The translations under genes and the position numbers were made by a program. A model generated the notes under the pieces. The model saw only the letters and a list, made by a program, of their open reading frames with translations, had not been told where the DNA came from and made no database searches. A stretch of 32,490 bases of DNA, taken from assembly GCA_017883185.1 (NCBI GenBank), contig JADGOB010000034.1, positions 1-32,490 of the forward strand. Reading direction: 5' to 3'. This document shows positions 8,622-15,558 of this stretch, one piece after another (the stretch's first letter is position 1; each line of letters starts with the position of its first letter). Source of the stretch: Acidobacteriota bacterium (GTDB taxonomy: Bacteria > Acidobacteriota > Vicinamibacteria > Vicinamibacterales > Fen-181).

Positions 8622-9566
8622 CTATGACTGCGGCGCTTCCGTCTGGCTGATTCGACTGCCGGGCGGAACGCTGTGCGTCAGCCAGACGTTGCCGCCAATC
8701 ACCGATCCCGCCCCGACCGTGATCCGTCCGAGCACGGTCGCCCCGCTGTAGATGATCACGTCATCCTCGACGATCGGGTGGCGCGGGATGCCCTTCACGG
8801 GATGTCCGTGCTCGTCGAGCGGGAAGCTCCGCGCGCCGAGCGTGACGCCCTGGTAGAGGCGCACCCGATCGCCGATCTCACACGTCTCCCCGATCACGAC
8901 ACCGGTACCATGGTCGATGAAGAAGCACTCGCCGATGCGGGCCCCGGGATGAATGTCGATGCCGGTCAGGCTGTGCGCGTGCTCGGTGATGATCCGCGGG
9001 ATCAGCGGGATATCGAGCCCGTACAGCTCGTGAGCGAGGCGCTGACACGTGAGCGCCAGGATGCCCGGGTAGCAGAGAATCGTCTCGGCCGGGCTGGTCG
9101 CGGCCGGGTCGCCGTTGTAGGCCGCGCGCACGTCGGTCGCGAGCAGGCGTCTGACGCCCGGCAACTGCGAGAGGAACCGCTCCGTGACCGCGTCCGCCCG
9201 TTGCTCGCACTCGGTGCATCGCACCGGGTCTTCGCCCTCGCATGTGAAACACAGGGCGCGCCGCACCTGCTCGCCCAGCGTGCGCAGCACCCGGTCGAGC
9301 GTGGCGCCGACGTAAAACTGCAGGGCCTCGCCATTCAACTCCGGAGTGTCGCCGACATAACCGGGGAACAACACCGAGCGGAGTCCTTCCACGATCCACG
9401 CCAGCGCCACGCGCGACGGCGGGTTGGGATGCTTCACCTGCGACTCGGGCCGGATCAGCCCATCGTCGCTCGCGCACAACTGCCGCACCACGGCGGAGAG
9501 CGTGAGGTGTTCGGGCGCGCGCGGAGCGGGGCCAACCGGGAGACGACGACCGGACCTGGGGTTCAT
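8622..9566 (-). CDS. cysE: Serine O-acetyltransferase
   Basis: 314-residue, cytosolic, long-form serine acetyltransferase: L-serine plus acetyl-CoA gives O-acetylserine for cysteine synthesis. The C-terminal left-handed beta-helix shows [17 protein letters not shown] with H219 as catalytic His, then [17 protein letters not shown] and [19 protein letters not shown]. The helical N-domain ends with [17 protein letters not shown] and [20 protein letters not shown]. Between them are two CxxC pairs, C106/C109 and C117/C120, likely a small metal site. The protein ends in SQTEAPQS, without the terminal Ile that inserts into the CysK active site in well-studied synthase complexes. Its ATG overlaps the cysK stop (ATGA), so the two are translationally coupled. 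Confidence 0.95.
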
Positions 9567-10495
9567 GCCTGATCCTCGAACAGCCAGGTGCTCAGGTACC
9601 GCTCACCGGTATCGGGCAGGATGACGACGATCAGTGCGCCGCGGTTCTCTTCGCGGCCGGCCACCGCCACCGCGCCTTCCATCGCAGCCCCGCAGGAGAT
9701 GCCCGAGATGATCCCCTCTTCCTTCGCCAGACGCCGCGCCATCGCGCCGGACGCCTCGTTCGAGACGGTGATCACTTCGTCGATCAGATCTTTGCGCAGC
9801 ACGTCGGGGACGAACCCGGCCCCGAGGCCCTGGATCTTGTGGGGCCCTGGCTTGCCACCCGACAGGACCGGCGAGGCTGACGGCTCGACCGCCACGATCC
9901 GGAACGACGGCTTCCGCGGCTTGATCACCTCGCCGACGCCGGTCAGCGTGCCTCCCGTCCCGACGCCGGAGACGAAGATGTCGACCTGGCCGTCGGTGTC
10001 CTTCCAGATTTCCTCCGCCGTGGTGCGCCGGTGCACGTCCGGGTTCGCCGGATTCGAGAACTGCTCGAGAACGAGGTATCGCGGGTCCGATTCCGCGAGT
10101 TCCTTCACGCGCCTGATGGTGCCCGGCATGCCCTCGCCGCCCGGCGTGAGAATCACTTCGGCGCCGAACGCCTTCAGCATCTTGCGGCGCTCCATGCTCA
10201 TCGTGTCCGGCATCATCAGCACGAGCCGGTACCCGCGGACGGCGGCGACGAACGCCAGGCCGATCCCCGTGTTGCCGCTCGTGGGCTCGAGCAGGATGGT
10301 GTCGGGCTTGATACGGCCGTCCTGCTCGGCGGCTTCGATCATCGCCAGGCCGATCCGGTCCTTCACGCTGGCGCAGGGGTTGAAGCTCTCGAGTTTGGCG
10401 ACGATTCGGCCTGGCAGGCCGGCGCCGATCCGGTTGATCGCGACCAGCGGCGTGTGTCCGACGAGCGCGGTGATATCGGGGGCGATATTGGTCAT
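9563..10495 (-). CDS. cysK: Cysteine synthase A (O-acetylserine sulfhydrylase)
   Basis: 310-residue PLP enzyme that converts O-acetylserine and sulfide to cysteine. PLP lysine is K45 in [11 protein letters not shown]; the substrate loop is EPTSGNTG (residues 70-77); the phosphate loop is [24 protein letters not shown] matches the family C-terminus. The start at 10495 ([16 protein letters not shown]) is supported by AAAGGAT about nine bases upstream and by the family's N-terminus. The frame is open much further upstream, but that extension is antisense to fumC and not real. It is the first gene of a cysK-cysE pair with a four-base overlap. Regulation by an upstream promoter in the 10.5-10.8 kb region is likely. 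Confidence 0.96.
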
Positions 10496-10832
10496 TGGGG
10501 CGATCCTTTCTGACGGGCTCGGGAAGCCGCCGGGTACCGCGCCCGCGTATTCGTGAGCGGCGCGGATCCGGTGGGCCCGGGTCGATTGTCGATGTGAGCG
10601 TGCCCTGGGTTTGAGCATAACAGCCGGTGTCGACTTCGGAAAGCTCAGCCGCAGTGCCAACCGGGCGGTCCGGCCGAGGTAGAATTGCAGGCAGGGGTCC
10701 TCCGCCGCCGCCCCGCGGCGCCTTCGAGCCCTACCGGACGCGCCCTGCAGACATGCAGGCCTCAGGGGAAAGACCAGGCTGCGCCGCCGCCCAATCGGCG
10801 TACACGCCGAGATGTGCCGAATGGAGGCAATG
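10496..10832. promoter_or_regulatory. Divergent intergenic region between cysK and fumC
   Basis: About 340 bases with no convincing gene, between genes transcribed away from each other. On the minus strand TGTTATGCT (-10 TATGCT at 10614-10619) could drive cysK with a leader near 110 bases. On the plus strand GGTAGAATTG (-10 TAGAAT at 10680-10685) could drive fumC with a leader near 140 bases. Clear -35 boxes, operators or a riboswitch are not evident. Confidence 0.35.
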
Positions 10833-12224
10833 ATGAGCGCATCACGAATCGAACGAGACAGCTTCGGCGAGATCGCCGTGCCCTCGGACCGCCTCTGGGG
10901 CGCCCAGACCCAGCGTTCGCTCCAGCACTTCGACATCTCCACCGAGCGCATGCCGCGCGAACTGATCCTCGCGCTGGCGCTGGTCAAGCGCTGTGCGGCG
11001 CACGTCAATCTCCAACTGGGCGTCCTGGACGAACGCAAAGCGCAGGCGATCGCGGCGGCGGCCGACGAGGTGATCGCCGGCCGGCACGAGGCGGAGTTCC
11101 CGCTCTCCTTGTGGCAGACCGGTTCGGGCACCCAGACCAACATGAACATGAACGAGGTGCTGGCCAACAGGGCCTCCCGGTTGCTGGGAGGGCCGCTCGG
11201 CAGCGACCGGCTGGTGCACCCGAATGACGAGGTGAACCACGGTCAGTCGTCCAACGACGTCTTCCCGACCGCGATGAGCGTGGCCGCTGTGCGCGCCATC
11301 GAGGGCGCGCTGCTGCCGGCACTCGCCGCGCTGCGCGACACCCTGGCGCGGAAATCGCAAGCCTATGCCGACGTGGTGAAGATCGGGCGCACGCACCTGC
11401 AGGACGCCACGCCGCTGACCCTGGGGCAGGAGATGTCGGGCTGGGTTGCGCAGCTTGGCCACGGCATCGGTCACGTCGAGGGTTCGCTTTCGCACTTGCG
11501 CGAGCTGGCGCTCGGCGGAACGGCGGTCGGGACCGGCCTGAACACGCACCCCGACTTTGGGCGCCTCGTCGCGGACGCGCTGTCGCGGGAGGCGGGCACC
11601 CTGTTCGTCACGGCGCCCAACAAGTTCGAGGCGCTGGCCGCCCACGACGCGATGGTGCACGCGCACGGCGCGCTCAAGACCGTCGCCGCGGCGCTGATGA
11701 AGATCGCCAACGACGTGCGCTGGCTGGCGTCCGGGCCGCGTTCGGGCCTCGGCGAAATCCGGATCCCGGAGAACGAACCGGGCAGCTCGATCATGCCGGG
11801 CAAGGTCAACCCCACGCAGTGTGAAGCGCTGGTGATGGCGTGCTGCCAGGTGATGGGGAACGACGTGGCGATCAACATCGCCGGCGCCTCGGGGAACTTC
11901 GAGCTGAACGTCTGCAAGCCGGTCATCGTCCACAACGTCCTGCAGAGCATCCGGCTGCTCGCCGACGGTGCGCGCAGCTTCGACGCGCACTGCGCGCGGG
12001 GCATCGAGCCCGACCGCGGGCGCATCGCCGAACTCCTGGAGCGTTCGCTGATGCTGGTCACCTCTCTCAACCCGCACATCGGCTACGACAAGGCGGCGCA
12101 GATCGCGAAAGCGGCACACCACTCCGGGTGCACGCTGCGCGAGGCAGCCGTCGCGTCGGGCCACGTGACGGCCGAGCAGTTCGACGATTGGGTGCGGCCC
12201 GAGGACATGGTCGGCCCCAGGTAA
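10833..12224 (+). CDS. fumC: Class II fumarate hydratase
   Basis: 463-residue iron-independent fumarase (fumarate plus water to malate, TCA cycle, cytosolic homotetramer), the normal length for FumC. Family features: the N-terminus [63 protein letters not shown], and the signature [11 protein letters not shown] at residues 317-327, whose serine is the catalytic base. The ATG at 10833 is preferred because GGAGG lies five bases upstream; ATGs at 10812, 10821 and 10830 in the same frame fit the ribosome site less well. Aspartase and argininosuccinate lyase share the superfamily, but the N-terminus and the [11 protein letters not shown] motifs point to fumarase. Confidence 0.95.
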
Positions 12225-12566: not shown

Positions 12567-13868
12567 CTAGACTCCCGAGTTCATGTACTTGCGGATCGTC
12601 GCGACGGTCCGCTCAATCTCGGCCACCGAGTTGTAGAAGTGAGGCGACAGACGCAGGCCAGGCCGGTCCGCTCCCGACCGCGCCGAACAGGCGATGCGTT
12701 CCCGCTCGTAGAGCGCGGTCGCCAGCTTCGATGGGTCGAGCGCGCCCGGCTGGAACGTGACGATGGCGGCCGAGTGTGCCGGGTCGGGTGATGTCCAGAC
12801 GCGCACGCCGTCGATGCGGCGGAGTTCTGTCATCAGGAGCTGGGCGAGGCGGCGCGATCGCGCCTCGATGGCCGTCCGGCCGATGGTGGCCTGCAGCGTC
12901 AGCGCTTCTCCCAGGCCCAGGATCTCGGCTTCGTTCCGCTGGCCCAAGCCTTCGAGGCGCCGGGACACACCCACAGCCCCCGCGTACAGGCTCACGACGC
13001 TTGGCCACAACCTCGCTTCGATCTGCTTGTTGACGTAGAGCACGCCGACCTCGCGAGGGCCGCACAGCCACTTGTGCGCGCTGCCTGTGAAGAAGTCGGG
13101 CTGCATGTCGGCCAGGTCGATGTCCAGGATGCCGAATGACTGCGCACCGTCGACGACCGACAGCACGCCGCGTTCGCGCGCCAGGCGACAGATCTCGCGG
13201 GCTGGAAACACGTCACCCGAAGAAGCCGTCACGTGCGTGAAGGCGACGATGCGGGTGGCGGGCGTGAACGCGGAGCGGAAGGCGTCGATGATGGCGACGT
13301 GGCCCGGGTGCGGACTCGGATGCGCCACGCGGCGCACCGAGAATCCAAACCGTTTCGCCTTCTCGACCCAGGCGTTCAGCAGGCTGGGGTGGTTCTCAGC
13401 CGAGACCAGCACCTCGTCGCCGGCCTTCAGATCGATCCCGCTCGAGACGAAGTTGTTGCCCTCGCTCGTGTTGCGCGTGATCACGATCTCTTCCGGCGTC
13501 ACCCTCAGCGCCGCGGCCACCGTGCGCCGCACCTGCTCCTTCGCATCGCTCAACTTCCGCCGGTTCGGCATCGATGGGTCCGCGTCCACGTCACGCGTGG
13601 CGCGGTAGACCGCTTCGATGACAGGCAGCGACGTAGGACACAGGTTCGCGGCGTTGACGATGGTGAGGCCCGGCGGCATGAGGAACTGTTGACGAACCTG
13701 TTGCCAGTACGCCTCGCCGGCCGAGGCTGGGGCTGCGGCGACCGGGGGCGTCTGCGGTGCCGCCCACGCCGGCAGTTCGAACCATCCGAGTGTGCCGGCC
13801 AGGCCGGCCAGTCCCGCGAAGGAGCGCCGGCTCATGGTCGGCCGGTGTGTGTCGTATTTCGTGCTCAC
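12567..13868 (-). CDS. Tat-exported class V aminotransferase-fold PLP enzyme (isopenicillin N epimerase-like)
   Basis: 433 residues. The start is GTG at 13868, supported by GGAGGG about six bases upstream. The N-terminus has a twin-arginine motif, MSRRSFAGLAGLAG (R14, R15), so the folded, cofactor-loaded protein is probably exported. The PLP fold is class V: TRNTSEGNN, VDGAQSFGILDIDL, and the Schiff-base lysine K266 in GSAHKWLCGP. Relatives include isopenicillin N epimerase and cysteine desulfurase; a cysteine-desulfurase role is less likely for an exported protein. Substrate unknown; epimerase, lyase or aminotransferase activity on an amino acid is possible. The gene lies 37 bases after the serine hydrolase and is probably co-transcribed. 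The signal is uncut Tat-like text in the sequence, not proof of export. Confidence 0.86.
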   Translation of the reverse strand: MSTKYDTHRPTMSRRSFAGLAGLAGTLGWFELPAWAAPQTPPVAAAPASAGEAYWQQVRQQFLMPPGLTIVNAANLCPTSLPVIEAVYRATRDVDADPSMPNRRKLSDAKEQVRRTVAAALRVTPEEIVITRNTSEGNNFVSSGIDLKAGDEVLVSAENHPSLLNAWVEKAKRFGFSVRRVAHPSPHPGHVAIIDAFRSAFTPATRIVAFTHVTASSGDVFPAREICRLARERGVLSVVDGAQSFGILDIDLADMQPDFFTGSAHKWLCGPREVGVLYVNKQIEARLWPSVVSLYAGAVGVSRRLEGLGQRNEAEILGLGEALTLQATIGRTAIEARSRRLAQLLMTELRRIDGVRVWTSPDPAHSAAIVTFQPGALDPSKLATALYERERIACSARSGADRPGLRLSPHFYNSVAEIERTVATIRKYMNSGV

Positions 13869-13905
13869 AGATTCCCTCCAGACAGTGAAAGGCTTACTGC
13901 CGCGC

Positions 13906-15558
13906 CTAGACCTGTTTCTCGAACCTCACGTGGCGGACTCGCCCCGCGAAGATCTCGAAGCCATCGACCGCGCCGTCCGCGCGCCTGGTGAACCGCAGCA
14001 CGCGACCCCCACCCATCTCGAACGCATCCGCGAAGGCAGGCTGGAGGTTCCAGCGCTCCCACTGGCGTTTTACGACCAGGGCGTCCTTCTCGACCGTCAC
14101 CGTGTAGAACACCTCGAGTTCCGCGCTGAAGTACCGGCCTGCATACCCCGCGAGGTCTGACGCCGACGGCGTGGCGACCGGAACCGGGAGATACTCGCGA
14201 GGACGGGTCCCGTCAGCCAGCTCGCTGAGCCGCTTCACGGCACCGTTCTCCATCACGAACTCGTAGGTGATGGTCCCCGCGCTCCGGAATCGCTGCTCGG
14301 AGAGCGGCACGACCTCCGTCGATCCGATGCGCACCTTGCCCTGGTCCACGGTGACCTTGAGCACCGCGTCTGTTGTCGGGTCGCGGTAGAGGCCGGTCCT
14401 GGCCCGCAGGACCTCCGCCGCGACCGTCGCCGCAGGCAGGGGACCGGGCGCCTTCAGGGCATCCCGAAGGTAGAGCTGCGCCACCTCGTGACCCAGGCGT
14501 TCCGGGTTGGCCGACGCCACGTTGCACAGCACGGCAACCGACAGGCGCTGGTCTGGATACCTGGCGAGGAACGAGCGGTAGCCCGCCGTCGAGCCGCCGT
14601 GGCTGACCTCCTTCACTCCCTGGAAGGTCCGGACATAGAGACCCTGGGCATACTCGTTCACGAACCCGTCGTTCAGCCGGCCGCGCGTGTGCAGCGATTC
14701 GACGAACGTCCGCCCGCCCACGCGCGCCGTGTCGAGGTTCTCGTTCCAGGCGAGGAGGTCCTTGACCGTCGTCAGCAGCCCGCCGTTGCCGACGACATCG
14801 GTGAAGGACATGTCCGAGTGGAACTGGGCGTCGCTGCCCCGTGTGTAGGCGGTCGCGCGGTTCCTGACGATCGCGGTGTGGTCCTCGCGCCACCGCGTGC
14901 TGTTCATGCCGATCGGTTTGAACAACCGCGCGTCGCAGAACTGCTGGAACGACTGTCCGCTCACGCGGGCGACGACCACGCTCAGGAGCGTGAAGGCGGT
15001 GTTGTTGTAGAGGAAGTCGTCGCCAGGTTCGAAGTTCAGCCGCTGCTGCCGGCTGACGAGATCGAGGATCTCCGGTATCGAGTGCACCGCCTCGCCCGGT
15101 GGGCGCCCCGCCAGCGTCAACAGCGGCCACTGGCTCCTCAGGCCGCTCGTGTGGGTGAGCAGGTGCCGGAGGCGAATGCCAGAGGCGATCGCCGGCAATT
15201 CGGGCAAGTACTTCCGCGCTGGATCGTCGAGCGAGAGCTTGCCGTCGAGCGCGAGCAGGTTGATGGCGGCGGCCGTGAACTGCTTCGAGACCGAGCCTGC
15301 CTCGAAGATCGTCTCCGGCGCAATCGGCCGGTCGTCCTCGAGGTCCGCCATGCCGAAGGAGCGGAGCAGAACCGGCTCGCCCGTCTGCGCCACGCCAAGG
15401 GCACATCCGGGTGTGTCCTTCCTGTTCCAGGCCGCGAAGATCGTATTCACGCGGTTGTCGATCGACTGCGCGCTCGGTGACGGACCAGCCAGCGCAAGAG
15501 CCGCCGCGGCAACGGCCGCCGCGACGACGGCTCTCCAGAATCTTCCGGTGTACGGCAT
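13906..15558 (-). CDS. Secreted serine hydrolase, class C beta-lactamase/D-aminopeptidase fold
   Basis: 550 residues with a signal peptide (hydrophobic residues 8-25, cleavage near PSAQS), so periplasmic or secreted. All three penicillin-binding motifs are visible: S89-V-S-K92 (nucleophile and base), Y184-N-N186, and H320-G-G in place of KTG. This set is typical of D-aminopeptidases, esterases and family VIII enzymes rather than true AmpC beta-lactamases. After about residue 370 two beta-barrel-like segments follow ([19 protein letters not shown] and [19 protein letters not shown]), as in related D-peptidases with lipocalin-like C-domains. AAGAGGAA precedes the ATG. A TATACT box lies about 50 bases upstream. 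It is the first gene of a pair with the Tat-exported PLP enzyme. Confidence 0.9.

Follow-up and report, generated by a model that had tools for sequence, protein, structure and literature searches.

A predicted Tat-exported class V PLP enzyme from an Acidobacteriota genome, compared with PvdN, PtaA and the cysteine desulfurases

PLP is loaded in the cytoplasm; therefore each PLP enzyme exported by Tat has to take its cofactor along and to keep it functional outside. Among exported enzymes there are also racemases which use PLP but have another fold, namely the broad-spectrum racemases of Vibrio. According to the part of PMC6206403 which was available to us, two Pseudomonas enzymes are exported by Tat with PLP bound: PvdN, a periplasmic tailoring enzyme of pyoverdine, and PtaA, a periplasmic transaminase; the same excerpt reports that PvdN remains in the membrane when its active-site lysine is replaced. 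PvdN converts glutamate into succinamide using O2 (excerpts of PMC6411801 and PMC7497351), and in CcbF the replacement of Tyr195 by Gly gave an oxidative-amidation product (excerpt of PMC11794154). Literature searches for exported PLP enzymes of Acidobacteria, or for such enzymes within the set of Tat substrates, showed nothing on point as judged from titles and from the beginnings of abstracts.

The first-pass annotation of the locus described here started from the statement that PLP enzymes are mostly cytosolic. This is fair in general, but exported ones are already known in PvdN and PtaA (PMC6206403, in the part available). Hence the exported kind is not new in itself, and the clade described below is an uncharacterised member of it.

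The gene, its family and its signal

We analysed a stretch of 32,490 nucleotides from an Acidobacteriota bacterium, called the window in what follows, and listed in Table 1 the features of interest. The coordinates first given for the gene are confirmed, and its strand, which had not been stated, is the minus strand: the plus-strand reading of the same interval is interrupted by stops. When the window is compared with a relative of 97% identity (L037, which seems to be one record with L040 and L008), one counts 7, 5 and 20 differences at codon positions 1, 2 and 3, that is 20 synonymous and 11 non-synonymous codons. As expected, this pattern fits a coding frame, though the changes are few.

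Table 1. Positions in the window of the enzyme gene, of its signal and active-site residues, and of adjoining features
Feature	Position	Strand	Basis or conservation
Class V (fold type I) PLP enzyme with Tat signal	12567..13868	-	433 aa, GTG start at 13868
Predicted Tat signal peptide, residues 1-36	13761..13868	-	Sequence; twin arginines conserved
Twin-arginine motif SRRSF, residues 13-17	13818..13832	-	R14 and R15 in 29/29 orthologues
His160	13389..13391	-	29/29 orthologues, also PvdN and SufS; wider relatives His 13/20, Tyr 7/20
Asp240	13149..13151	-	29/29 orthologues, 20/20 wider relatives, PvdN and SufS
Lys266, Schiff-base lysine in SAHKW	13071..13073	-	29/29 orthologues, 20/20 wider relatives, PvdN and SufS
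Arg406	12651..12653	-	29/29 orthologues, 20/20 wider relatives, PvdN and SufS
GGAGGG, likely ribosome binding site of the GTG start	13874..13879	-	Sequence; five bases ahead of GTG
Serine beta-lactamase/D-aminopeptidase family gene (PF00144), possible operon partner	13906..15558	-	Upstream, 37 bases away

The protein matches Aminotran_5 (PF00266) over residues 105-419 with 169.8 bits (E 1.1e-49), which passes the Pfam gathering cut-off of 21.5. The best NCBIfam model is PvdN (NF051467), with 155.9 bits, far below its cut-off of 650, followed by SufS with 137.1 bits, below its cut-off of 475.1; in the one genome searched with the PvdN model, no match rose above the cut-off. In the PDB, a search with the single sequence placed PvdN (5i90) on top (residues 14-423, E 2.3e-38) and also returned 6wci, annotated as a cysteine desulfurase (residues 74-427, E 4.6e-37), while a four-row profile placed 6wci first (E 1.4e-46) and PvdN second (1.1e-43). 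Further matches, to C-DES (1elq) and to hercynylcysteine sulfoxide lyase, are weaker than those to PvdN or SufS. Because of these scores, we concluded that the enzyme is about as distant from PvdN as from the desulfurases, and lies in neither curated family. It had been credited with a complete class V fold: the Pfam and PDB matches establish the membership in class V, and the completeness rests on homology. AlphaFold, run on four sequences, gave a pLDDT of 44.5 and a pTM of 0.34.

At the N-terminus, the SRRSF motif precedes a mildly hydrophobic stretch (residues 17-34 have a mean Kyte-Doolittle value of 1.09; the h-region of the predicted signal peptide contains Glu31), after which an A-W-A, noticed by eye, is a possible signal peptidase I cleavage site. 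We compared it with 29 non-redundant orthologues (47-100% identity, the enzyme itself included), a set in which loci sharing the same matched sequence were merged and from which L040-L060 were excluded, so that the second copies in the genomes G028 and G019 are absent. Every one of these orthologues has the twin arginines where the alignment places them, in the form RRxF for 28 and RRxL for one, and so do 19 of the 20 wider relatives (31-43% identity); the lone wider relative devoid of them (L025) comes from a short locus of 2728 bases, probably cut by the contig end. The same genome contains six other class V matches. Five of them were read (L002-L006, the start of L005 being uncertain, while the sixth, L007, was left unread), and none of these five has RRx[FL] in its first 60 residues. 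As a further control, RRx[FL] was sought anywhere in the first 60 residues of other ORFs: it occurs in 4/36 background ORFs from related genomes, among which L114 has by eye a Tat-like signal and L099 a signal with arginines, and in 10/106 neighbour ORFs.

The clear twin-arginine motif announced ahead of the enzyme is thus real, and a search for orthologues lacking it, which would have spoken against export, found it in all of them. The genome also encodes TatC (214 bits). Taken together, the conserved motif, the intact PLP-site residues and the TatC gene support well the prediction that the enzyme crosses the membrane with PLP bound; that it is exported by Tat at all is likely.

Gene neighbourhood

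The product of the PF00144 gene upstream has, by eye, a Sec-like signal; its match to DUF3471 is below the cut-off, and it reaches 157 bits against a D-aminopeptidase model whose cut-off is 443. Of all the loci compared, the window and the 97% relative (L037/L040/L008) are the only ones in which this gene is paired with the enzyme. PF00144 proteins are common, with 9 matches in this genome and matches in 59 of the 60 genomes searched; therefore the upstream gene may be incidental. As the pair is so restricted and the family so widespread, we rejected this gene as a fixed partner, and no conserved operon partner was found when one was sought across the loci of relatives.

In the window, the pair is flanked by fumC and by a class I tRNA synthetase (GlnS by eye). 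The neighbours scanned there (PF00144, fumC, the class I tRNA synthetase, LpxD and cytochrome oxidase) do not look pyoverdine-like by their family matches. On the minus strand, at 8622-11167 and thus 2-4 kb from the enzyme gene, lie a serine acetyltransferase-like gene and a cysteine synthase-like gene, the frames of which both extend N-terminally past the matched domain. A second PLP enzyme gene, Pyridoxal_deC (PF00282, 237.8 bits), is found at 32-1450 on the plus strand. One NRPS Condensation domain of the genome (378.7 bits) belongs to an open frame of 1594 aa on another contig than the enzyme (G000:C158:9647-10984).

In a relative of 84% identity (L041), the enzyme gene is adjoined, on its own strand, by genes for an oligopeptide-type binding protein and an S9 peptidase. 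Elsewhere, peptidases of families M20 (L042), M28 (L054), M24 (L055) and M1 (L047) are met in the neighbourhood, as are amidohydrolases (L047, L058, L095, L096), together with MacB/FtsX, aldose epimerase, GlgE, PFOR, FTR1, an MFS/POT transporter, a fucosidase and others. Peptidases and amidohydrolases make up 12 of the 40 neighbour proteins scanned, three of the twelve (L052, L090, L091) having the M20 dimerisation domain only, versus 1 of 20 background proteins (S15), or 2 of 20 if the signal peptidase S26 is counted. The one-sided Fisher test gives p 0.024 in the former case and 0.076, which is not significant, in the latter. These figures must be read with the sampling in mind: the 40 neighbours were picked by hand (30 of the 106 listed and 10 from further gene calling), the background is 20 of 36 proteins, the gene caller is crude, five of the twelve matches are not immediate neighbours, and some of the loci are close kin. 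We did not count as peptidases an SBP_bac_5 protein (L041), a metallo-beta-lactamase fold (L043) and a sub-threshold Hydrolase_4 (L053). The neighbourhood is variable, with a hint of a weak leaning towards peptidases and amidohydrolases.

One can also notice that the PF04909 Amidohydrolase genes which adjoin the orthologue in two loci (L095:3897-4964 and L096:3988-5070) start with RRxF and a hydrophobic stretch (HRREF and DRRGF, respectively); from their N-termini, these two proteins look Tat-exported too.

Active site and candidate reactions

The residues expected around PLP are those of Table 1. We take His160 to stack on the PLP ring, by analogy with SufS, Asp240 to pair with the pyridine nitrogen, and Arg406 to bind the alpha-carboxylate of the substrate; the conservation of the latter argues for a substrate bearing such a group. 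The catalytic Cys of desulfurases presumably sits in a C-terminal loop aligned with residues 395-410, and all 29 orthologues lack a Cys at residues 395-410; Cys394 is present in 11 of them. SufS-type desulfurases are of the same fold family as the enzyme, which has 6wci as its best profile match, but differ from it in having this Cys, and they are not known to bear a twin-arginine signal.

Conservation was counted on an alignment from which rows under 60 bits were excluded (L006) and in which L007 gave no match. Between residues 50 and 430, 79 positions are invariant across the orthologues, and five of these invariant residues (P65, S142, H187, S302 and R397) are absent from all 20 wider relatives; D219, present in 28/29 orthologues, likewise occurs in 0/20. 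Cys77, in the motif NAANLCP, is shared by all the orthologues and by 13 of the 20 wider relatives. At the position expected to face the 3-hydroxyl of PLP, which is Ala215 here, the residue is small in 22 of the 29 orthologues (Ser 15, Ala 6, Gly 1) and Asn in the other 7, and Asn is also found in 14/20 wider relatives; PvdN has Ser there and SufS has Asn. Gln243, present in 28/29 orthologues, is aligned with a His in PvdN.

We consider it rather probable that the enzyme is a periplasmic class V PLP enzyme, exported by Tat with its cofactor, which acts on the alpha-amino-acid group of an amino acid or of a peptide, probably in peptide processing. It would fold and bind PLP in the cytoplasm, cross the inner membrane in the folded state via Tat and, once in the periplasm, act on a substrate whose alpha-amino and alpha-carboxyl groups are both free, either an amino acid or the amino-acid end of a peptide. 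There it would probably help to process what secreted hydrolases release, namely peptides and amino acids.

Which reaction this could be is a matter of comparing the precedents. PvdN, the closest described one, shares with the enzyme the class V fold of type I, the Tat signal, the top rank in NCBIfam and in the single-sequence search of the PDB, and the aligned Lys, Asp, His and Arg of the PLP site. One may therefore think of an O2-dependent oxidative decarboxylation of the amino-acid group carried by a secreted peptide or siderophore, and the small residue which most orthologues have at the Ala215 position, as PvdN has its Ser, would parallel the Tyr195 to Gly change of CcbF (PMC11794154, in the part available), given that we infer the correspondence of the two positions ourselves. 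This possibility is nevertheless quite unlikely. The score is far under the PvdN cut-off, the profile search ranks a desulfurase above PvdN, Asn takes the Ala215 position in a part of the orthologues and in most of the wider Tat relatives, and PvdN differs from the enzyme at N72, N75, C77, R132, D219, Q243, R311 and R397. The setting seems to differ as well, PvdN belonging to pyoverdine synthesis while the scanned neighbours of the enzyme show no such character and one Condensation-domain gene is on another contig; pyoverdine tailoring itself was rejected mainly on score. A transaminase or an amino-acid epimerase of the periplasm, both of which the class V fold allows, is unlikely too, even with PtaA as a precedent of a Tat-exported transaminase (excerpt of PMC6206403). 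The resemblance of the upstream gene to D-aminopeptidases would fit a chemistry of D-amino acids, but this gene is confined to the window and one relative, the transaminase models listed do not exceed 45 bits, and no epimerase model is among the 25 NCBIfam families listed. Racemisation, which had been put forward at first as plausible, finds no specific support in the sequence data.

Beta-lyase chemistry had been suggested alongside it, and a C-S beta-lyase which would work in the periplasm on cysteine, cystine or S-conjugates would agree with the presence of C-DES and of hercynylcysteine sulfoxide lyase among the PDB matches and with that of the serine acetyltransferase-like and cysteine synthase-like genes nearby. 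We find it quite improbable, since the lyases match less well than PvdN or SufS, fumC, on the other strand, separates the enzyme from these two genes, and the serine acetyltransferase and cysteine synthase families are absent from the 40 neighbour proteins scanned at other loci. Finally, the scores of annotated cysteine desulfurases are close to that of PvdN, so that one could imagine a desulfurase-like protein staying in the cytosol, with its N-terminal arginines there by chance. Against this stand the arginines kept in all the orthologues and missing from the five class V relatives read in the same genome, as well as the loop devoid of Cys, and we hold such a protein to be extremely improbable.

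Relatives and distribution

Relatives of the enzyme were collected from 60 related genomes, from contigs of named genomes (3 loci) and from 396 genomes of the phylum. Matches at E 1e-40 or better were obtained in 46 of the 60 related genomes, and matches at E 1e-70 or better in 77 of the 396; 20 of the 396 sampled genomes, the enzyme's own included, have a match of at least 561 bits. The distribution of the orthologue is patchy: two genomes of the same genus, G002 (91% complete) and G003 (77% complete), hold only relatives of 30-33% identity.

In a tree of 55 rows computed with IQ-TREE, the 29 orthologues are monophyletic (100/100). A weakly supported branch (84/81) has on one side the Tat-bearing rows and PvdN, the latter as a long branch about which the program warned that long branches may meet, and on the other side the rows presumed to be cytosolic. 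This topology is compatible with a single origin of export.

We can go further and propose that the Acidobacteriota possess an unnamed family of class V PLP enzymes, diversified and exported by Tat, which would rework periplasmic amino acids or the ends of peptides, with an O2 chemistry like that of PvdN in the clade of the window. Taken as a whole, this proposal is decidedly improbable. If true, it would mean that PLP metabolism has a periplasmic branch which does not belong to siderophore biosynthesis. Both of the exported precedents considered here, PvdN and PtaA, come from Pseudomonas (PMC6206403, in the part available), and the clade, present in 20 of 396 genomes, offers a second system for the study of periplasmic PLP chemistry.

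Two other observations were made among the relatives. An orthologue of 58% identity (L039) belongs to a Gemmatimonadaceae MAG, inside a clade which is otherwise from Acidobacteriota, and may reflect either a transfer or a binning error. In another genome, three class V genes of the wider family are clustered on one strand (G009:C1:1308603-1314193, with genes at 1308603-1309853, 1309886-1311154 and 1312940-1314193), which suggests a local duplication.
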